Part shown: piece after piece, positions 1-25,030 of the stretch
Layout of the letters: the number at the start of each line of letters is the position of its first letter
Position numbering within the stretch: position 1 is the first letter of the stretch
Source: Spirogloea muscicola
Lineage: Eukaryota > Streptophyta > Zygnematophyceae > Spirogloeales > Spirogloeaceae
NCBI GenBank assembly: GCA_009602725.1
Contig: WELB01000118.1
Location: forward strand, 64,916-90,747
Direction of reading: 5' to 3'
Length of the DNA stretch: 25,832 nt
Notes under the pieces: model-generated
What the model saw: only the letters and a program-made list of their open reading frames with translations
Databases searched by the model: none
Told to the model about the DNA's origin: nothing
Made by a program: the position numbers and the translations under genes

Positions 1-932
<932 letters not shown>

Positions 933-3900
933 ATGGCACGCCGCAACGAGGAGGACGCCGGAGCTCCGCCGTGGCGGCGGCGGCGGCGTCGTGGGAGTCT
1001 GGCCAAGGAGGCGCTCGCAGCGGTCGCCGCTCTCCTGCTGGCGCTGGCGTCACGGCCCGGAGGCGTGTTTGCGCACCCCCTCTGCACCGACTTCAGTGAG
1101 CGCCCCCCCTTCCTCCTCCCCCCTCCTTCCCACCGCCCTCCTTGCACTCCGGGCACTGTCCTGAGTACAAGTTCTCACCTCCATCTAACCCTCCTCTGCG
1201 TGCTCCACTCGGCAGCCGGGCCGGGACCAGAAGACCCGACCACTTTCTGCAACGCATTCGAGCCGGCGTATGCAGACAATGGCTGCTGTCCACCCTCGAC
1301 GGACAACTCGCTGCAGAGCCAGTTCAACGGTCTGTCCTTCAGCGGGCCGCCAGGCGCCAATGTCACGGGCTGCCGGAGGCTCGTGCAGAAGAACCTCTGC
1401 GCGGTGCGGCCCCCTTACCCTCTTATCCACTTCGCGCTGTGCCCCTCTCTCTCTCCTCCCCTGCCCTGCCTCATCCTCCCCCACTTCCTCCTCCGTGTCC
1501 CACCCTCCTTCCCATTCCCTCAGCTGCCATTGCCCTTGATCTCTCCGCCCTCTTCCAAGAGCTTCCTAGCAGGCTGCACCATATCATTCCTGTCCTTGCT
1601 TCCGCTTGCACCCTCCTCATGCCCTCTCCACCCCGCCCCTCTTCGCTATCATTCCGCAGGTGTGCGACTCGTGGAGTGCCCACTTGTTCAACGTGGAGGC
1701 AGACGCGCCGCGCGTGCTGCCAAACCTTTGCCTCGGCGACTGGTGCTCGCAGGTGTATGCAGCGTGTGCCAACGTGGCGATCGTGGACTCGCCGTTCCAG
1801 CACCAGTGGGACCAGATCTACCAGAGCGCCGGCGCCGTGAACCAGCCGTACAACTCGACGGCCACGACGCTGGCTTCGCTGTGGCCCGACCTGTCGTCCT
1901 TCGCATCCGATGTATGCGCATCCCCATACGTAGCGCGCTGCTACAGCGGCGTGCCCTACGACCTGGATGCGCCGCTGCCGCCAGCCCCGCCTCCGCCTCC
2001 GTCGCCACCGCCGGCGCCCTTGGCGCCACCGCCCCTCCCTGCGCCGCCGCCGCCGCCACCGGTGCCCGACTTCTGCTACGAGAAGGTGGACCCTGGCAAC
2101 TATGTCGGCATGGTGGCGCACCCAGACGGCTCAGACACGAACCTCATCTTCACAGAGGCTGGCGTTGTGTACCTCACCACTGTCTCGCCACCCTACTCCG
2201 GAAAACCCATGGGCCCCAAGACAGTCGTGAGTCCGCCTGCGCCTGCTGCTGGACCCTTGTCCTGCTATGTGGTACTCAGGCTCGCGCTAGTTTGTGCTTT
2301 CTGATGCTTGGACCCCTCCAGGAGGGAGGGAAGATGCAGGAGGGGCTCTCGCAAGTCCCGCCACCTTGGTCATGAAGTTTTCCTTCACGTCAGCTGCGCA
2401 GCCTGCTCGCACCTCCTAACGCTTCTCTGTCTGTCTTGGCTGCCGCCGCCTGACCGTCCTCCTACGCCGCTCGCAGTTTCTGAACCTGACAGACCGCGTC
2501 TTCTACGACCGCAATGAGGCCGGGTTCCTGGGGATCGCGTTCCACCCCCAGTTCATGACCAACGGCCGCTGGTTTGTGCACTACGTCTGCGACTCGTCTG
2601 TGTGGCCCGACTGCCAGGGCCCCTGTGGCTGCGATCCGGCATTTGGATGCTACTTCAACGACTCGCGACTTGCAGCATCTTACCAGCCCCACTGCACAAC
2701 CAACACGATTGTTGCTGAGTATTCGGTGGGCGCCCACCCCGCCACCGCAAACGCGTCTCTGCCGAACGAGGTCCGCCGCATCTGGACGTATGGCAGGTGC
2801 GCTGCTCGCTGTCGCCCTCCCTGACCTCTCCTTCTGCCGCTCTTCCTTCCCGTACACCCACTCTCTCTCCTCTATCCCTCATGCTCTCCTTCTCCTGTTT
2901 CCGTCTCCGTGTTGCCACCCAGTCTAGCCCTGTTCACCACTCTCCATCTGCCTCTCCCACATGCTCGTCTTATGCCCCGCCCTCTTCCTCGCTTGATCTT
3001 CCACTCTCGTCGCTGTCGACCCCTGCCTCTGCTTCCAAGTCAGTCTCTCTCTTTGCCTCCCGCTCTGTTCCCCCTCTCCTCCCGTCCTATGATTTGCTTT
3101 TTTGATTCCAGAGAGTCTTGTGCCACTCCTACCACATGTCTTCCTTTCTCCCATCCTTCCTTACCCCTCTTCCATGTCCTCCTTTCTTCCCCCCCCCCCC
3201 TCTGGCAGACCGTACAACAATCATTTTGGTGGTCACATCTACTTCAGTCGCAAGAACCCGACGGGTGACATGTTCATCACGTCCGGCGACGGCGGCGGCG
3301 AGGGCGACATTTACAACTTTGCACAGAACGGCCTCTCACTGCTTGGCAAGATCCTGCGCGTCAACGTCGACAACATCACCACAAGCAATGCACAGTGGAA
3401 TTACCGCATCCCACCTGATAATCCATTTGTGCAGCGCACGGACGTGAATGTGCGGCCTGAGGTGTGGGCGCTTGGTTTCCGAAACCCCTGGTCCTGCACC
3501 ATTGACAAGGAGAATGACGACTTCTTCTGTGCTGATGTTGGTCAGGTGCCGTCACAACCCTCTTGGGGAATGAGTCTGCATACACCAGTTGCATCTCTCT
3601 AACATCTGCATTTCATGTTGCACAGATGATATTCGTGAGTAGCTCTGCGTCGTTTACATGCCATGCAACAGTACTTCGTAGTCATACTAGAGCAAAGTCC
3701 TACTTTATGATATCGAGATCTCAGTACTCTTAACGTGTTTCTTGAGCACAGTGGTTGTTGATTAGCTTCTGAGCAAATTGACAGTTTATATCCACCCCCT
3801 ACGCAGGATCTGCCATCCACTAAGACAGATGTCCAATTGCAGCAACTGCAATTTGCTCACATGTGGGCATGGCCTTGCTGCAGGACACTGAGGAGGAGCT

Positions 3901-6900
3901 TAACTTGATCGTGCCTGGCGGCAATTATGGCTGGCGCATGTTCGAAGGTAGGGCTGCGGCTCTTGGCTATGCCCTTCCTGCTGCCAAACTCTGCAAAGGA
4001 ACGGTTCTCCTGAGCCGTCTGGTGGAGACGCCCCGCATGTCCCTCTCGACAACCTCCGCTTGCTCGCTCGCCCACCCCACCTCCAGCAAGCCGTCATCTT
4101 GTTACTCTGCAGGCACGGTGAACTTCACGCAAATTGGCGGCCTCAGCAAGTACCCCCCCGTCGGCGGCATCACTACGCCCGACCAGGCCATCAACCACCC
4201 CGTCCTGGTACGAGATGCGCAGCGCGAACTCCCCAGTGGTGCTGACACTTGGAGCTGCCGAGCAGCAGACCTGAATTGCTGATACTGACCTGACCTGGCT
4301 CTCCTGTTGTGGCCGCCGCAGTTTCCTCTCATTGAGTACGCGCATCGCGACTTCAACCCCGCTAGCGCGTCCATCATCCAGGGCCCCATCTATCGCGGTC
4401 CTTTGTCGTGCTACTATGGGAAGATGTTCTGGAACGAGTGCTTCAACTGTGAGCACCCATCCTCCTCCTACCCCCTGCCAAGCTTCTGGTACTTGATAAT
4501 TTGTCATTATCAAGTACATTATTATTTAAATAAGTCTCAGGTGATTACCGAGGCAGGACGTTGTGGTTGTCATGCGAGGCTTGATGAGGACCCCTCCTCC
4601 CCTGTTGCTCTCCCCTCCCCTTCCCTGGGCAGGCGCGAACATGATGCAGGTGGCGACGGACACGACGCCGCCCGGCGTGGGCAAACGCTGGCAGAATGCG
4701 TCGTCGCAGGCGGTGAATCAGTTCTGCTCGTCAACGAGCCCCTGGACATGCGGAGCAGGCAGCCAGACGGTGCCAGCATATGGCCAGCTCAAAGGGCTGT
4801 CGTGGCTATGGATCTGGGCGGAGGACAACAACCACGACGCGTACATCGTCGGTAAGTACGGCGTCTACCGGCTCGTGCACCCGGCCTACTGCAACATCAC
4901 CGCCACTTGCGGCGCTGTGCCAAGCCAGCCGCCGACGTCGCCCCCGCCGCCGCCGCCCAACTCACCGCCGCCGCCCAAGTCACCGCCACCGCCCAAGCCG
5001 CCCCCGCCGCCCAAGTCGCCGCCGCCGCCCCCCAAGGCATGCCCTCTGAGGAGGTGAGGTCCATATGAAGCTTACGTAAGTTGATGCCACCGGCGTGGAT
5101 GATCCTCTTTGCATGTCATCGTAGTCCTCAGCCCTGACTGTGACTACAGCACTCCTGTGGCTAACACTTCAGATTTAAGCTTAACTTCAGATTTTTCGGC
5201 AAAAATGATAAATCTTGAATGCTCTGTATTCCTTGCACTGGGCAGACATCAAGCTTCAGCTTCAGTTCTAGGCTTCATGAATATTTCGCCTGATCAAGGA
5301 CTCGAGATCCACGATCTAGAACTGGCAATGTCTATGTATGTATTCCATCTCATGCTGATGCTGTTGGTAGGCTTCGTGACCTCCTTTTCAGCAGTGTCTG
5401 TTTTTTAAAGCCGCTTTTGACGAGGATGCGAACAANCCACCCGCCGCCGCCCTCGCCGCCGCCGCCTATCGAGTCTCCCCCGCCGTCGCACCCGCCCCCG
5501 CCTCCGTCACTTGGCCAGTGGACCCTCCTCTCCAGCAACATTGGGATTTCAGGCGGCATTGCAGCGCTGCTGCACTCCAACACCATCGTGTTTGCAGACC
5601 GGGGGGCCATTGCTCAGACAGGCGTCTTCCAGAGCGCCAATCAGTCGGCATATGCGCATGCGGTGGAGTACAATCTTGCCAGCAATCAGGTATTGCTGCT
5701 GGAGCCGGGTGTGGGGGATGGCTGCTTTCAACTGATCGAGCATAAGGAGCATGCTGTGGACGTGCTCTGTTGGCTCATGTAAGGTAGCATTACGGCTTCT
5801 GCAGAACACTTCCACCGTCGAAATTCATCATGTCTCTCTGAAACCTGCAGATACGCGGGTTGAATGTTGGGTCCGACACTCTGGGTGCGTGCGGTCACAC
5901 CATGGCCGACGGCACGCTGGTCCTGGCTGGGGGCGCGCGCCTTGTCAACGACATGAGCGGCTTCTACGCAGTCCGGAAGTTTGCGCCCACCTCAGATGGC
6001 TCCAGCGATTTCCAGGTGCCAGCTGGGGCTACAAGAACTAGGAGGTGAGAAACACGTACTCACCACACTGATGGCCATGTGCATGTGTAGTACCATGCAC
6101 ACATTATGTGTTGAAATGCATGTTGCACGTGTCTGTCTGCATCTGCATAATCTTGCGCATGTCGTAAGGAGTCTACGAGTTTCACATATTCTTGGTGCAC
6201 TCTACATGCACATCTTGAGTGACACATCATGGAGTCATATGCCTGTGTGTATCCACTTGCATGTTGCGAGTCAGTTGATTGACAAGGGCACGTTCAAAAT
6301 GAATGGATGTCCATGTGTGTCCATGCTGCTAATGTTCCTCCTGAAATTTCATATGTTCGGCTTACCAGCCAAGCTTACTCATCATGTTGGCAGCAGCGCT
6401 CCACTTTGAACCTGAATGACTAATTTACTGCTGTACTCTGAAAGCTCATCCCATAAATTGCCTTCCTGCCATATGCAGGTACGGGTGCGGCTGCTCGAGG
6501 ATGGTCAATGGCAACCTGGTCTTTGTCGGGGGCCAGGGCATCGTAGCTGACACTGATTCAACGCTGTACACAAGCTACTCGTATGAATTCCTGCAGCGAG
6601 CGTCCCAAACAGAGGCACCCAACTCGCATCCATTGGCGCTGCTCAATGTTACACTGCCATACGACCTGTACCCGGCAGTCATTTCCCTTAAGAACGGCAA
6701 TGTCTTCATCTTTGCCAACACACAGGTGCCGGCCCTGGCACCCTTTAGGAGATGATTGGAGCAATTCGGAGCTGCCCATTATGCACCCATAGCATTAATA
6801 CTTCTTGGTATGTATGCCTCTGATGATTTTATTACCTTCTGTGATTTCAGTCAGTGGAAGCCAACCTGGCATCGAGCGGGGCAACAGTGCGGAGCTTCCC

Positions 6901-9900
6901 AGAGCTTACCGACGACTCTGGGAGCAACCCGAGGAGCTCTCCATATCCTGCGTCGATAACGCTGCTGCCTTTGGATCATGTGGACTCCTATGCCCAGAAG
7001 ATTCTTGTGTGCGGCGGCGGCAACCCTGTCACAGCAAGCTGCGCCGTGATCAACACGGACGCCGCCAGCCCGGCATGGACCTCAGAGAATATGCCCGGGG
7101 CTCGAACCATGAGCTCAGCCGTCCTCCTCCCCACTGCCACCGTGCTCATCATCAATGGAGCGCAGGATGGGTCTGCAGGTTCGCTCTCCAGCCTGTGCTC
7201 GATCCATATTTGATCATTGCAATTGTTGGCTCTTTGTTGCGCGTCGCGTTGCAATGTGAGCTGCTTCTGGATCTCAGCTGCCCCTGATATGCGTCTGCAT
7301 TTCTTTTCTGTCATCAGTGGTGAAAGGCTCCACCACGCCTGTGCTCACTCCATACCTGTACGACCCTGCGGGCCCACTTGGCGGCCGCTTCACGGTCCTC
7401 GCGGCTGCCACCACGGCCCGCATGTTCTCGTCGACTGCGACCATCGCACCGGACGCCCGCGTCATTGTGGCCGGGTCCTTCGAGCAGACCACAACTGCCT
7501 CCTACGTAAGCCCAACGCAGCTCAGCGTGGAGGCATATTCCCCGCCATACCTGCTCACAGGCGCCACGCAGCCTGTAATCACCGCAGCACCGGCAACCGT
7601 GAACTACGCCCAAGCATTCACCGTCAAGTTCACCTCAGCGGCCTTCAGTGCAGTGTCGGTTGTTCTCACGGACCCCGGCGTTGCGGTGCGCGGACTAAAT
7701 CTTGGACAGCGGCTGGTCAAGTTGGCCGCGTCGTCCGTCGTCGCGGGCGCCGGTGACTCGTGGACGGCCAGCTTGGCAGGCCCGCCGAGCGGTGTCGCGC
7801 CGGCAGGTTTCTATCTCCTGGCCGTGGTCGTGGACGGCGTGCCTTCGGCCGCTTCGTGGGTCCAGGTGGGCGGCGTGCCAGTCCTGGCTCCGCCAGGCAC
7901 GCCGGCGACGCCACCGGCGCCGTCCGCGCCCTCCCCAGTCGGCACGCCACCAACTCCACCACCATCACCCCCCATGGTGGCCTCACCCCCGCCACCCCGC
8001 CCACCTCCTCCATCGCCTCCACGATCGCCGCCACCGCCTCATCCGCCGTCTCCGCCGCCTCCGCACCCCCCCCCCTCTCCTCCGCCGCCCAGCCCGCCTC
8101 CCTCAGTTGGCAGCTACGCTGTCCTGAGCCCCAACATTGGCATCGTCGGAGCATATGCAGCACTTACAAAGTCCAACACCATCTTGTACCTAGACCGTCT
8201 GGACGTGGCACAAACACAGACGCCCCTTTGGAACAACGCCTCAGCATCGGCTCATTCGGTGGAGTTCACCATCACGTCTGGTGCTGTAAGTGTCAGACTG
8301 CACCCAGCATTTTGCACTTCTAGCTGGGCAACACGTGATCACTCCTGGCTGGCACCACATGATTATCTAAGTTGACAATTGCTTAAGCCGTCGTGTTTGC
8401 CAGCTTCGTCCTCTACTACATGTAGCAACTGAGGGGTTTGCATTCTCAGCACCTCATTGTAACACCGTGCCTACCTTGCACAGGTCCGTGGCCTGACCAT
8501 TCAGAGCAATCCAATTGGGTCCTCGGGACACTCAACTCCAGATGGCCACATCGTGAGCATGGGTGGCGCTCTCGGTGGCACTGGTTACTACGGGAATCGC
8601 CAGGGGTACTACGGCATCAGGACCTTCCTAACCGGGAGCCCCACATCCGACTTTGACCTGCCGGAGAAGACGCTGAGGACGAGTAGGTACCAAGGGGCTG
8701 CACACAGGCTGCCGAATGGCAATCTGGTGGTGGTCGGCGGTCAAGGGGCCTTCACTGACTTGGACACGAATACGACGGTCAGCCCGTCGTACGAGGTTAT
8801 GATCAAGGGTGGGCCCTACAGCACCATAGAGAAGTCCAATGCCAACCCGGTTCCCTTCCTTGCACAAGCCACACCATATGACCAGTACCCCATCCTGCAC
8901 CTCTTGAAAGATGGCACCTTCTTCCTCTTTGCCAGCTACATGGTGAGTCAAGGACCAGACGCCATTCTATTCACCATGCTATGACTTCTCCCATTCCCCA
9001 ATGGTGGCTGCCATGTGCCTCTGACCATGGCATTCTACATCTGGACTGCCCTCTGATATTTGGCTGAAATTTCCGTGCAGTCCTGCACCGTGAACTTGAC
9101 GATCCCTGGTCCAACTGGTGCACCTTGTATCAAGACCTTCCCGGCTCTCGCGGACGGAAATGGCAACAACGTTCCCCGGACCACCCCGCTTCCCGCGGCC
9201 TCTGTGCTCCTTCCCCTCGATGCCTCAGCAGGTTATGCTCAGAAGGTCCTCGTCTGCGGTGGCGGCTTCCCCACCTTGGCGACCTGCGGCATCCTCGATG
9301 TCGATACTGCCTCGCCGAGCTGGGCCCTGGAGAGCATGCCGGGCCCCAGACTGATGTCAGACGCAGTCCTTCTCCCCACGGGGGACGTACTCCTCATCAA
9401 CGGTGCTTCTTCTGGTTTGGCTGGTGAGAATGGCCCTCCCTCTAAAGCATACCATACAGTATGATGGCTTTTGACCAGGTTGAGCTTCAAGCAGGCAGCT
9501 GCAAGTCTGCATCCAAAGCATGCACACTAAGTGTGTGATATTTATTCTATTGTCACAGGCAACAATGTGGCCAACACCCCCCTGCTGGCCCCGTATCTCC
9601 TCGCACCAAGCGTGGCCGTCGGCACACCCGGTAGATGGACCACTCTCGCATCGGCAACCACGCCCAGAGCGTACCTGTCGACAGCCACCCTTGTTGCGGA
9701 CGGAAGGGTTGTCCTCGCCGGAGGCAACCCGAATCAGAACAACACCCAGCGCTACTACTCGCCTCCGGCCGTTCTCTCGGTGGAGGCCTTCTCTCCACCT
9801 TACCTCTCCTACAGGTACTTGTCGTCAAGAGGGCTGCTCAAGGCATCTGGCTTTACGCATTTGGCATCAGCCAGGCTGCGGTGAATCGATATGGAGAGTC

Positions 9901-10491
9901 TTCTTTCTTCCTTTATATATTCCTGATGGCTGTTGTATTAAACTGCACACTTTGCAGTGCCTCGGCCCCAACCATTTTGACAGCTCCGGCAACGGCTGGT
10001 TATGGCGCCACCTTTACGGTCACATTCAAGGCAGCATCGACTCCCTCCATGGTCACTCTTGCGTTTGTTGACACGGGCTACCACACACATGGACTGGGCA
10101 TGGGCCAGAGGAGCGTCATGGTCGCAATATCTGCTGTCAGTGGATCAGCCAGCTCCATGACTGTGACAGCAGTTGCACCTCCCAATGCCAATTATGCACC
10201 ACCTGGTGAGGAGATGTTGCATGAGATCAAGTCAACTATCCCAACTCCTAATAATCGATGTAGGCATGTCCTTTTATAGTTTCACACATGCAGAGATTCA
10301 AGCAAGATCTTCCTCCTGACTTGTTGATTGATTGCCATTTCTATCTTCCTGCTGTTGTTGCAGGCTACTATCTGCTCTTTGTTGTCATTCCGGGCCCGGC
10401 GGGGAGCATCCCATCCCCAGGTGTGTGGGTGCAAGTTGGGGGTGTGCCCAACTATCCTCCTCCTCCTCCCTCTCCTCCTTCCACAAGATAG
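933..10491 (+). CDS. Secreted fusion protein: HIPL-type glucose/sorbosone dehydrogenase with two glyoxal oxidase-like modules
   Basis: Nineteen exons read by eye: 933-1095, 1216-1403, 1660-2226, 2477-2796, 3209-3545, 3884-3947, 4113-4207, 4322-4448, 4633-5053, 5392-5689, 5851-6044, 6479-6725, 6851-7178, 7318-8285, 8484-8942, 9081-9423, 9559-9814, 9958-10205, 10364-10491. All introns are GT-AG, every junction keeps phase, and the total is 5,751 nt (1,916 residues plus stop). The ATG at 933 has A at -3 and G at +4. Residues 1-47 form an Arg-rich n-region, a Leu/Ala core and a VFA|HP cleavage-like site, so the protein should enter the secretory pathway. Then come a Cys-rich domain (48-219), a Pro linker, a dehydrogenase-like propeller (254-706), a Pro linker, oxidase-like module 1 (801-1306), a Pro linker, oxidase-like module 2 (1381-1900) and a Pro-rich tail. 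The fusion depends on the intron 5054-5391; otherwise the first part would end at TGA 5055-5057. I infer an extracellular or cell-wall protein; its activity is uncertain. Confidence 0.75.
1084..1965 (+). other. Cys-rich HIPL/folate-receptor-like domain (residues 48-219)
   Basis: This module is spread over the end of exon 1, exon 2 and the first part of exon 3. It contains repeated cysteines in an arrangement typical of the N-terminal domain of plant HIPL and animal HHIP-like proteins: a single Cys after the signal peptide, FCNAF, a GCC pair, NLCA, VCDSW, NLCLGDWC and AACANV. In that family the domain precedes the sugar-dehydrogenase propeller, as here. It is probably disulfide-bonded and extracellular. 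Its ligand cannot be inferred from sequence; the resemblance to folate receptors is structural and does not imply folate binding. Confidence 0.75.
1966..2066 (+). other. Pro-rich linker 1
   Basis: About 34 residues, mostly Pro with Ala and Ser, join the Cys-rich domain to the propeller. The DNA is a CCG/CCN triplet run. Such SPPP/PPPP stretches are typical of hydroxyproline-rich algal and plant wall proteins. Confidence 0.85.
2067..4892 (+). other. Glucose/sorbosone dehydrogenase-like (GSDH) beta-propeller module (residues 254-706)
   Basis: Exons 3-9 encode the module. Recognisable family segments in order are GFLGIAFHPQF (exon 4), PYNNHFGGHIYF with a candidate catalytic His 418 and a TSGDGGGEGD turn (exon 5), GFRNPWSC (exon 5), GGNYGWRMFEG (exons 6-7), FPLIEYAHRD and GPIYRGP (exon 8), and a closing KYGVYRLV strand (exon 9). 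Soluble members of the fold use PQQ and calcium to oxidise sugars; plant and animal HIPL/HHIP members have this propeller, but their enzymology is poorly known. The His-containing HxGG segment is kept. Whether it binds PQQ cannot be read from the sequence. Confidence 0.85.
4924..5509 (+). other. Pro-rich linker 2, interrupted by the intron that joins dehydrogenase and oxidase halves
   Basis: The propeller is followed by PPPPKSPPPPK-type repeats (4924-5038). An intron with donor GAG|GTGAGG at 5054 then leads to more PPPPSPPPP sequence (5437-5509) just before oxidase module 1. The acceptor at 5390-5391 follows CCTCCTTTTC and restores frame; those ending at 5424, or at the ambiguous base 5436 if it is G, would also keep frame. 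Pro-rich sequence on both sides supports a single split linker. Confidence 0.65.
5510..7886 (+). other. Glyoxal oxidase-like module 1 (residues 801-1306)
   Basis: Exons 10-14. It opens with WTLLSSNIGISGG, continues through IRGLNVGSDTLGACGHT, a kelch-like repeat region (VLAGG, VFVGG, LVCGGG, LIINGA) and RVIVAGS, and ends in the VEAYSPPYL and FYLLAVVVDGVPS segments of the C-terminal immunoglobulin-like domain (DUF1929 type). Copper radical oxidases need a Tyr-Cys crosslink, a second Tyr and two His. By alignment this module keeps the Cys (874, codon 5890-5892) and the first Tyr (926, 6480-6482). The second Tyr-His pair is replaced by Phe-Ser (1153-1154, 7425-7430) and the last His by Arg (1241, 7689-7691). 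Copper radical chemistry is therefore unlikely as in the canonical enzyme. Confidence 0.85.
7887..8108 (+). other. Pro-rich linker 3 between the two oxidase-like modules
   Basis: About 74 residues of Pro/Ser/Thr/His repeats (PPPSPP, SPPPPRPPPP, PPPPHPPSPPPP) lie within the single exon 7318-8285, so the tandem arrangement of the two oxidase modules is read directly in one open frame without needing a splice. Confidence 0.95.
8109..10440 (+). other. Glyoxal oxidase-like module 2 (residues 1381-1900)
   Basis: Exons 14-19. It has the same order of segments as module 1: SPNIGIVGAYAAL, VRGLTIQSNPIGSSGHS, VVVGGQ, LVCGGG, LLINGA, VVLAGGNPN, VEAFSPPYL and YYLLFVV. By alignment the crosslinking Cys is Ser (1453, 8523-8525). 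The first Tyr is kept (1508, 8688-8690), the second Tyr is kept (1745, 9672-9674), the adjacent His is Leu (1746, 9675-9677), and the last His is kept in HTHGLGMGQR (1836, 10088-10090). It could still bind a metal with Tyr, Tyr and His but lacks the Tyr-Cys cofactor. Its losses differ from those of module 1. Confidence 0.85.
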
Positions 10492-14131: not shown

Positions 14132-14462
14132 CTGAGCGTCTCTAGTGCGTTGTCGTGCTTGCTAGTGTAGTCCTTTTTCGGCACCTCTTTCTTTGGCTTT
14201 GGACATTGTCCATTCTTTTAGGCTGGCTTTGCTGGCCCCCTTTCTCTATGGGCGCGCTCTTTCTTCTTTTGCCAGCCCCTCTTTCCTATGCGCGAGCTCT
14301 CCTTTCTGAACAATGTATTGGCTTGAATTGGCCTCCCTTTCATTTCATGCGCCCCTCGCGCCTTCTCTCTTTCTTTTAGGCAGCCCTTGCCCCCACTGGG
14401 AAAGCCACTTCTTTCCTTAGCCTGGTACTACTAGGCGGCCGCCCCGCTTGCTGTAGCATGAG

Positions 14463-14508
14463 AGAAGTGGCACTCCCAATGGGGGCAAGGGCTGCGAAAA
14501 GCCAGCCC
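14463..14508 (-). repeat. Right arm of the perfect 46-bp inverted repeat
   Basis: Begins AGAAGTGGCACTCCCAATGG and ends AAAGCCAGCCC. It is the exact reverse complement of 13784-13829. A diverged direct copy of the same core lies between the arms at 14381-14412. Confidence 0.9.
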
Positions 14509-14599
14509 AAAAAGAATTGACAAAGTTTCGGAGGGGCCTACAAGCGTGTAGCAGCTACAAAGAAATGCGTGTATTTCAAGAGATGGGGAGGCCATGTGT

Positions 14600-15013
14600 G
14601 GCCAAGTACAAAGGGGTCGGAAGATGAAAGTGGGTCCCGGGAAGCCCTCCACCCTGCGGGGTGGAGCTGCTGTGAGTTTGCCGTCCGATTTGTGCCGCTT
14701 TCGATCGGCCGGTGTCTGAGCGGCCACGCCGCCAGACGCTCCTGCCGCGCCGAACGTTGCCGCGTTCCGTCGCACTGGACGGCGCGGGCTTCGCTTGACG
14801 GCGATGGGGCCGCCGGGGGTCGCCGTTAGTGAGTGAATGTGTTCCCGCGCGGGGCGGCCCCTCGAGCTGGGGCGGAGGGGGGGGGGTGCCCCGGGCCGGT
14901 CGTGCCGTCATTTTGAGGCCGTTTGACGGCGACCCACCGTTTGGTCACGGGCGCCCCCGTCGCTCGGGCTGCCCCGCGGCTATGGTCGCCGGATGCGCCT
15001 GACTACCCTCCCC

Positions 15014-24103: not shown

Positions 24104-25030
24104 ATGGACTCGCTGCTGTCCAAGGCCGGCGGCTTCCTGATGCAGCGCCGCGCCACAACCGAGTGGAACTCCTTCAACGACGACGTCACTGTAAGCTCCC
24201 CACGCCCCGCTTTCCTTCGCCGCCGCCACCACTGCCGCCGGCTGCGGCGCCGAAGCTTTGCTGGGCCCCGCCCCGGCCGCTCGGAACCCCACCTGGCAGA
24301 GGTCGCCTTTGAAGCGCTGCAAAACTTGGTTGCCTCGAGCTCTGCTGGCCGCAGAGGGTCGCGCCGGAGCGTCTGCGGATGCAGTCAGCTATGCAACCCC
24401 TGGCGCGCTTTTCCCAGCTGACTGCCTTCGGGCACAATTGGCCACTGTGCAGTCGCTGAGCAAGTCGGCGTCCGAGTCCACGTCAAGGCTCATCAACAAA
24501 CTCCGAGGTTCGCACCGCTGGAGCGCCCCCGCCTAGTCTTTGTTGCACCTTCAGATGTGCGGAGTCTTGCCCAGTTCGCACGCCAACCACCTACAGCCCC
24601 TGTCCTCATGCGCTTCGCTTTGCGACCTTCCTTGGGGGCTGCTTCTGCAGGCAAGGCGCAGTTACTGATCACGGAGTTGCTGGCAAAGCACGGCTTGCCC
24701 AGGGGGCTATTTCCCAAGGACGTCACTGGCTACACATTTGACGAGGCCACGAGTCGGTTGGAGGTCACACTTGGCAGCTGCCGCGAGGTGCACTATCCAG
24801 ACAAGTCCGTCGTGCGCTTTGACTCCACCATCTCCGGTATCCTGGAGGAGCGCTCCCTGACTGTCATCGAGGGTATGAAGACCAAGATGCTGCTGTGGAT
24901 GAAAGTCACGGCGATATCTGCGGACTACCCACCGCCGGACCAGGTGTACTTCCAAGCTAGCGTCAAGAAGGCCCGCAAGTTTCCCGCTTATGACACCGTC
25001 CGGGAGGGGGTGGAAATCGATGCATTCTAA
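24104..25030 (+). CDS. DUF538 family protein
   Basis: Three exons (24104-24190, 24453-24507, 24651-25030) with GT-AG borders and matching phases give 173 residues. The start MDSLLSKAGG is the first ATG after the telo-box cluster. The short N-terminal part (MDSLLSKAGG to NKLRG) is followed by the DUF538 fold: ITELLAKHGLPRGLFPKDV, GYTFDEATSRLEV, FDSTISGILEERSLTVIEGM, LLWMKVTAI and VYFQASVKKARKFP. There is no signal peptide or membrane segment, so it is probably cytosolic. DUF538 proteins are widespread in plants, and some have been linked to stress and trichome growth; the biochemical role is not settled. A TGTAAG lies 18 bases after the stop and could be a polyadenylation signal or a 3' UTR splice donor. 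Confidence 0.93.

Follow-up and report, generated by a model that had tools for sequence, protein, structure and literature searches.

The window, a stretch of 25,832 nucleotides from Spirogloea muscicola, is best explained by two genes on the same strand that are separated by an assembly gap, a reading to which we give a probability of roughly 0.55 (Table 1). The first gene would encode a HIPL protein with an apparent signal peptide, a Cys-rich domain of the folate-receptor/HHIP type, a GSDH propeller, and a Pro-rich tail followed by a stop. The second would encode two Pro-linked glyoxal oxidase (GO) modules, its 5′ end having been lost in the gap. The preliminary description had joined both into a single HIPL-GO-GO polypeptide; this claim is unsupported because it rests on an unsupported join across 5054-5391.

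Table 1. Positions of the genes, exons, modules and assembly features in the window
Feature	Positions	Strand	Remarks
HIPL gene	933-5057	+	Cys-rich domain, GSDH propeller, Pro-rich tail; 761 residues if unspliced at 5054
HIPL exons 1-5	933-1095, 1216-1403, 1660-2226, 2477-2796, 3209-3545	+	
HIPL exons 6-9	3884-3947, 4113-4207, 4322-4448, 4633-5057	+	
Pro-rich (CCG-repeat) tail or linker of HIPL gene	4915-5039, approximate	+	
C279-like segment	5040-5435	.	contains proposed intron 5054-5391 and exon start 5392-5435
Single N	5436	.	read as contig join, gap of unknown length
GO-GO gene	5437-10491	+	5′ end missing; two tandem GO modules
Pro-rich stretch opening GO-GO gene	5437-5509	+	exon runs on to 5689
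GO-GO exons after 5689	5851-6044, 6479-6725, 6851-7178, 7318-8285	+	
GO-GO last exons	8484-8942, 9081-9423, 9559-9814, 9958-10205, 10364-10491	+	
GO module 1 (GO1)	5510-7885, approximate	+	Glyoxal_oxid_N and GO-like_E_set; degenerate copper site
Pro-rich linker GO1/GO2	7886-8105, approximate	+	within one uninterrupted exon
GO module 2 (GO2)	8106-10446, approximate	+	Glyoxal_oxid_N and GO-like_E_set; degenerate copper site

The assembly gap and the fused paralogs

The N at 5436 lies inside the proposed exon 10 (5392 onward). DNA kinship of the window to two other GO-GO copies, on contigs C152 and C2, begins at 5438, and both copies have N runs just upstream (6,504 bases on C2, at C2:1825941-1832444, and at least 7,459 on C152, up to 26958). 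The C2 copy also has a poly-A edge resembling window 1-121, and some single Ns of the genome adjoin poly-A or poly-G. At a control locus (L026, C20:534k), an ABC-transporter frame and a GO module are connected by a single N, whereas in L028, a close copy of this locus, a run of N occupies that position; we infer that the ABC-GO join is false. None of the three copies yielded a GO-GO 5′ end bearing a signal peptide of its own; each breaks off at an N or N run in Pro-rich, linker-like sequence, which counts against two genes. HIPL copies beside the GO-GO genes on C2 and C152 were considered and set aside, as none was found among the 69 of 87 candidates scored; the N gaps could conceal them, and this also counts against two genes, since both runs have room for a HIPL part.

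The end of HIPL, a Pro-rich linker and the start of GO stood in one frame at five of the six same-strand loci read (C390, C95, C123, C12, and C289), where the frame is open and N-free with no intron in the linker. The gene models of C95 and C12 lack a linker intron, and Pfam recognizes GSDH, Glyoxal_oxid_N, and GO-like_E_set in the protein of C95. The aligner put short breaks in the Pro-rich linkers of C390, C123, and C289, where the frame was open when read; the HIPL part of C123 is interrupted by a frame break, and C289 contains stops. At the sixth locus (L031, C105:208k), the HIPL frame hits a stop and most of the GSDH half is missing. The titles and abstract openings that searches returned named no HIPL-GO fusion. 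Fusion of HIPL to GO through a Pro-rich linker held at five other loci, while in the window it had bridged an assembly gap. Because the order recurs at five same-strand loci, the position of HIPL ahead of GO in the window could be more than coincidence.

It is conceivable, though rather doubtful, that the locus truly encodes one HIPL-GO-GO chain, in which the Pro-rich tail of HIPL and the Pro-rich stretch ahead of GO1 form a single linker exon like that of the paralogs, 5040-5436 being an assembly error inside it. The N-free, single-frame linkers at the five loci, the intron-free linkers of the C95 and C12 models, and the Pro-rich ends of the three GO-GO copies all favor one chain, as does the GO-linker-GO arrangement in one frame that C2, C152, and C20 also have. 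However, one chain requires errors at both 5040 and 5436, as against one gap, and Pro-tailed unfused HIPLs exist. Of the seven 3′ ends read from unfused HIPLs, six carry a Pro-rich tail that is followed by a stop, either directly (C105:200k, C285, C28:621k, C390:55k) or after a Ser/Thr-rich stretch (C30 and C462); C28:42k ends in a hydrophobic tail. This survey listed at least 19 HIPL loci (69 of 87 candidates scored) and modeled nine besides that of the window, C285, C30, and C462 being read at the 3′ end only.

The trees also weigh against one chain. GO1 and GO2 of the window fell outside the fused GO clade, and its HIPL was not part of the clade that unites the fused with the convergent HIPLs, so the paralog fusion is not transferable by descent alone. 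The GO tree contains 22 of the 30 aligned loci (L014, L033, L034, L037, L047, L051, L061, and L066 were short, broken or remote), and both trees are midpoint-rooted with long-branch warnings (C30_conv, C67/C365; WINDOW with C28_42k). Because neither the GO modules nor the HIPL of the window group within the fused clades, the fused paralogs were rejected as proof; neither they nor the trees demonstrate a fusion at this locus.

The segment before the gap and the proposed intron

Window 5040-5435 is 88.7% alike to C279:35290-35684. The C279 copy is N-free, has neither HIPL nor GO alongside (1,300 bases read), and carries a stop in the frame of the supposed exon, of which it covers the first 44 bases (5392-5435). 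A fused gene interrupted in its linker by a real insertion of this duplicated segment would agree with the second copy, but the right border of the segment is the assembly N and C279 holds the only other copy found, making an insertion quite improbable.

The preliminary description had proposed 19 exons encoding 1,916 residues. On rebuilding, all borders were GT-AG, the phases matched and the length was reproduced, with one residue read as X from the N. Most exons stood; the exceptions were the intron 5054-5391 and the first part of exon 10 (5392-5435). The N was absent from the text of the preliminary description. Without splicing at 5054, the HIPL frame reaches a TGA stop at 5055-5057 after its Pro-rich tail, and with this stop, the foreign segment and the N, HIPL, linker and GO do not form one uninterrupted frame in the window. 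In-frame splice joins over this stretch are frequent by chance: at least one in-frame GT-AG join was possible in 226 of 300 mononucleotide shuffles, and donor 5054 itself gave one in 148 of 300. The real segment has 25 such joins across the proposed intron stretch, above the shuffle mean of 4.8, but 24 of them are due to just four donors, which share acceptors and lie in a single frame. The intron was rejected on account of the stop in the C279 copy and the shuffle results. Thus an exact 19-exon gene, despite its fitting borders and phases, is barely credible with an N inside the next exon, 44 bases of exon 10 copying sequence with a stop in frame, a join so readily available to shuffled sequence, and five fused paralogs whose open linkers have no intron.

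Flawless splice borders thus do not keep a gene model from crossing an assembly gap of one base next to CCG-repeat linkers. Three checks apply to such models, namely kinship that starts at the N, the breakpoints of paralogs, and an unrelated-gene control.

Domains of the two genes

Under the preferred reading of two genes, the domains previously described in each were confirmed. The HIPL N-terminus has a hydrophobic stretch (by eye). The Cys-rich, folate-receptor-like domain (PF03024, Folate_rec) scored 34.5 bits (Pfam cut-off 29.8) and the GSDH propeller (PF07995) 93.7 bits (cut-off 25), and HHIP chains such as 2wfx_B match the window HIPL at E 2e-11. In the comparison with 2ism, which covers these residues of the cofactor site, the aligned His and the Arg-Asn pair are kept; we take them to be the PQQ/catalytic residues of the sugar dehydrogenase family. 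The propeller may thus be a PQQ-type sugar dehydrogenase. The protein would be secreted, and its Pro-rich tail may anchor it in a hydroxyproline-rich wall.

In the second gene, the exon 7318-8285 is common to GO1, the linker and GO2. Both domains passed the Pfam cut-off in both modules (Glyoxal_oxid_N, 110.9 and 103.3 bits; GO-like_E_set, 64.1 and 77.9 bits). The GO-GO half is coding, because no stop interrupts the same 10 exons in any of the three copies (window, C152, and C2), and codon changes among the three are mostly synonymous (synonymous/non-synonymous 118/44, 130/35, and 149/45).

The equivalent of Cys228, which forms the Tyr-Cys cofactor, is Gly in GO1 and GO2 and Cys in seven canonical sequences aligned alongside; in GO1, a Cys follows two residues past this position. 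For Tyr272, both modules have a Tyr one position before the aligned column. Among the copper ligands, the equivalent of Tyr495 is Phe in GO1 and Tyr in GO2, that of His496 is Ser and Leu, and that of His581 is Arg and His, respectively. The fused GO modules elsewhere in the genome have lost copper-site residues too. Because of these losses, oxidase activity of the window and fused GO modules appears unlikely, which weakens the proposal of a redox machine as far as the GO modules are concerned. They have the two-domain make-up of an oxidase and may instead bind wall glycans or glycoproteins, or provide a scaffold for them, without catalysis.

More speculatively, this genome might encode a family of wall proteins built from several Pro-linked propellers, each with a head module and one or two copper-less GO propellers as binding modules, of which the window would hold a three-propeller HIPL-GO-GO member broken only by assembly. 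The head module in such a family would be HIPL/GSDH, or a GO with a canonical copper site (C20:607-614 kb). HIPL-GO fusions and copper-less oxidase propellers raise the testable question of non-catalytic propellers in algal-type walls.

Comparison with known systems

The window HIPL resembles HIPL/HHIP proteins in its Folate_rec Cys-rich domain and GSDH propeller. It has a Pro-rich tail in contrast to the hydrophobic C-terminal tail of C28:42k, and in the alignment it keeps Arg-Asn where HHIP has His-Asp. With the soluble PQQ sugar dehydrogenases it shares the GSDH domain and, as in 2ism, the aligned His and Arg-Asn, but it differs from them by the Cys-rich domain and Pro-rich segments. Both GO modules have the Glyoxal_oxid_N and GO-like_E_set domains of AA5 copper radical oxidases (glyoxal/galactose oxidase), and 9n3u_A matches them at E 6e-37 and 2e-37. 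They differ from these enzymes by the tandem layout through a Pro-rich linker and by the loss of the Cys228 and His496 equivalents in both modules and of Tyr495 and His581 in GO1. The HIPL-GO fusions of C95, C12, C390, C123, and C289 have the domain order of the window, namely HIPL, Pro-rich linker and GO; unlike the window, they have one GO module, which belongs to another GO clade, and a linker that is open and N-free.

Two probable genes and the proposed join between them

The preliminary description had drawn a single chain over the HIPL gene (933-5057) and two tandem glyoxal oxidase-like (GO) modules, GO1 and GO2, of the GO-GO gene (5437-10491), connected by an intron at 5054-5391. When its 19 exons were rebuilt, the GT-AG borders and phases matched and 1,916 residues were recovered. 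In exons 1-9, the HIPL half, Pfam scored GSDH at 93.7 bits and Folate_rec at 34.5, and in the spliced protein GO1 and GO2 each had Glyoxal_oxid_N and GO-like_E_set over the cut-off. 9n3u_A was the best solved-structure relative of both GO1 and GO2, and 2ism and HHIP chains were those of the HIPL propeller.

The GO-GO half reads as a real gene when it is aligned with two other copies, on contigs C152 and C2, which are about 90% alike in DNA. Ten exons are common to the three copies, with no stops in any, and a single exon holds GO1, the Pro-rich linker, and GO2. Codon changes among the copies are chiefly synonymous (synonymous/non-synonymous 118/44, 130/35, and 149/45) and chiefly at the third position, and the introns are 76-94% alike.

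The join itself turned out to be unsupported. Position 5436 is an N, and similarity to the copies on C152 and C2 starts at 5438, immediately to its right; left of where it starts, both copies have an N run (see table), with a 123-base poly-A at the C2 gap edge. The stretch 5040-5435 is 88.7% alike to an N-free stretch of another contig (C279:35290-35684), within which there is a stop where the window model reads exon. In the 1,300 bases read around the C279 copy, HIPL was not found to the left and neither Pro-rich nor GO sequence to the right. The real join segment allows 25 in-frame GT-AG joins, but at least one such join also occurred in 226 of 300 mononucleotide shuffles (148/300 from donor 5054), and an in-frame join is therefore no evidence.

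Gaps and other features of the window and related contigs
Feature	Sequence	Position	Strand	Evidence
N run upstream of GO-GO	C2	1825941-1832444		
N run upstream of GO-GO	C152	from 19500 or earlier to 26958		
DUF538 protein	window	24422-25030	plus	PF04398, 89.9 bits

In this assembly, a single N looks like the mark of a contig join. Among those observed, two, which are the same place covered by overlapping loci, sit between poly-A and poly-G, and near-identical downstream sequence on C64 and C190 is N-joined to GO genes with break points that differ. As a control, a locus at C20:534k (L026, C20:532698-535937) has one N in one open frame that runs from an ABC transporter (ABC_membrane, 41.4 bits) through Pro-rich sequence to a GO start, a short piece scoring 23.7 bits, below the cut-off of 37.5. 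In the close copy of this locus on C185, an N run stands at the same place, and we infer that the L026 join is probably a false fusion made by assembly.

Another single N, at window 15061 within a CCG/CGG repeat, is probably a further contig join. Window 1-121 is poly-A that abuts an N run of its own contig (C118, 63500-64915); it resembles the C2 gap edge and looks like an assembly artefact.

The locus is best read, with a probability of roughly 0.55, as two genes separated by a gap. Unspliced, the HIPL gene ends in a Pro-rich tail and TGA (5055-5057), giving 761 residues. Among seven unfused HIPL 3' ends read, four had a Pro-rich tail and then a stop, two (C30, C462) had a Pro-rich tail turning Ser/Thr-rich before the stop, and one (C28:42k) had a hydrophobic tail that by eye looks like a GPI-anchor signal. 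HIPLs with a Pro-rich tail and stop are ordinary in this genome. All but C28:42k (6/7) have a GO match nearby on the opposite strand.

An unfused HIPL paired convergently with a GO gene is a recurrent arrangement, at L041, L042, L047, L051, L053, and L061. SILFGLAFRSPCPHWECHF, which lies in a minus-strand frame at window 14431-14907, is also found in the C30 HIPL tail and is perhaps a dispersed repeat.

HIPL-GO and GO-GO fusions elsewhere in the genome

Fusion of HIPL to GO by a Pro-rich linker, though not upheld in the window, was borne out at other loci. One N-free frame spans the HIPL end, Pro linker, and GO start at five of the six same-strand loci read (C390, C95, C123, C12, C289), each with a single GO module on the same strand as HIPL; the remaining locus (C105:208k) is broken. 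The C95 and C12 gene models have a linker without an intron, whereas the HIPL part is interrupted by a frame break in C123 and by stops in C289. In Pfam, the C95 protein has GSDH (81.8), Glyoxal_oxid_N (92.5), and GO-like_E_set (68.6), with Folate_rec (24.2) below its cut-off of 29.8. A search of titles and abstract starts, in literature largely without subscription journals, gave no report of a HIPL-GO fusion.

C95, C123, and C12 also carry a downstream GO match on the other strand. At L031 (C105:207596-210850), a HIPL without most of its GSDH half, which looks decayed, lies directly upstream of a fused-type GO module.

In midpoint-rooted trees, both with long-branch warnings, GO1 and GO2 of the window fell outside the fused clade (27 GO rows; clade support 100/100), fused and convergent rows were separated from them by a branch with 99/100 support, and the window HIPL fell outside the fused and convergent HIPLs (10 rows; 99/99). 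Given the fused paralogs, the window could therefore contain a fusion, but they do not prove one, as the window parts lie outside the fused clades in both trees, and a true HIPL-GO-GO chain with a misassembled linker is a tentative alternative to two separate genes. The exact 19-exon model as first drawn is very unlikely.

On C20, N-free frames run from a canonical GO end to a second GO module (609575-610576) and from the second to a third (611242-612474). These loci (L068 and L023, C20:607765-614400) comprise a canonical GO and two degenerate modules with N-free Pro-rich frames between them, and would probably encode a single protein of three modules whose head is active.

Copper-site and PQQ-site residues

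In galactose oxidase, the copper ligands are Tyr272, Tyr495, His496, and His581, and Cys228 is linked to Tyr272 (PMC4072685). In a single alignment of 27 modules, the columns for the first four of these sites (228, 272, 495, and 496) read Cys, Tyr, Tyr, and His in all seven canonical rows; the fifth lies beyond the partial model in 5/7. At 228, both GO1 and GO2 carry Gly; at 495, 496, and 581, GO1 carries Phe, Ser, and Arg, and GO2 carries Tyr, Leu, and His. Both have a Tyr one column left of 272. HIPL-fused GO modules have Gly at 228, then Phe, Asp, Gln, and His. Because these residues differ, the window and HIPL-fused modules are unlikely to be oxidases of known kind.

In structure alignments, the window HIPL propeller keeps a His and an Arg-Asn pair of the PQQ family, which we take to be functional residues there. 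HHIP keeps the His as well, but has His-Asp where the window propeller has Arg-Asn.
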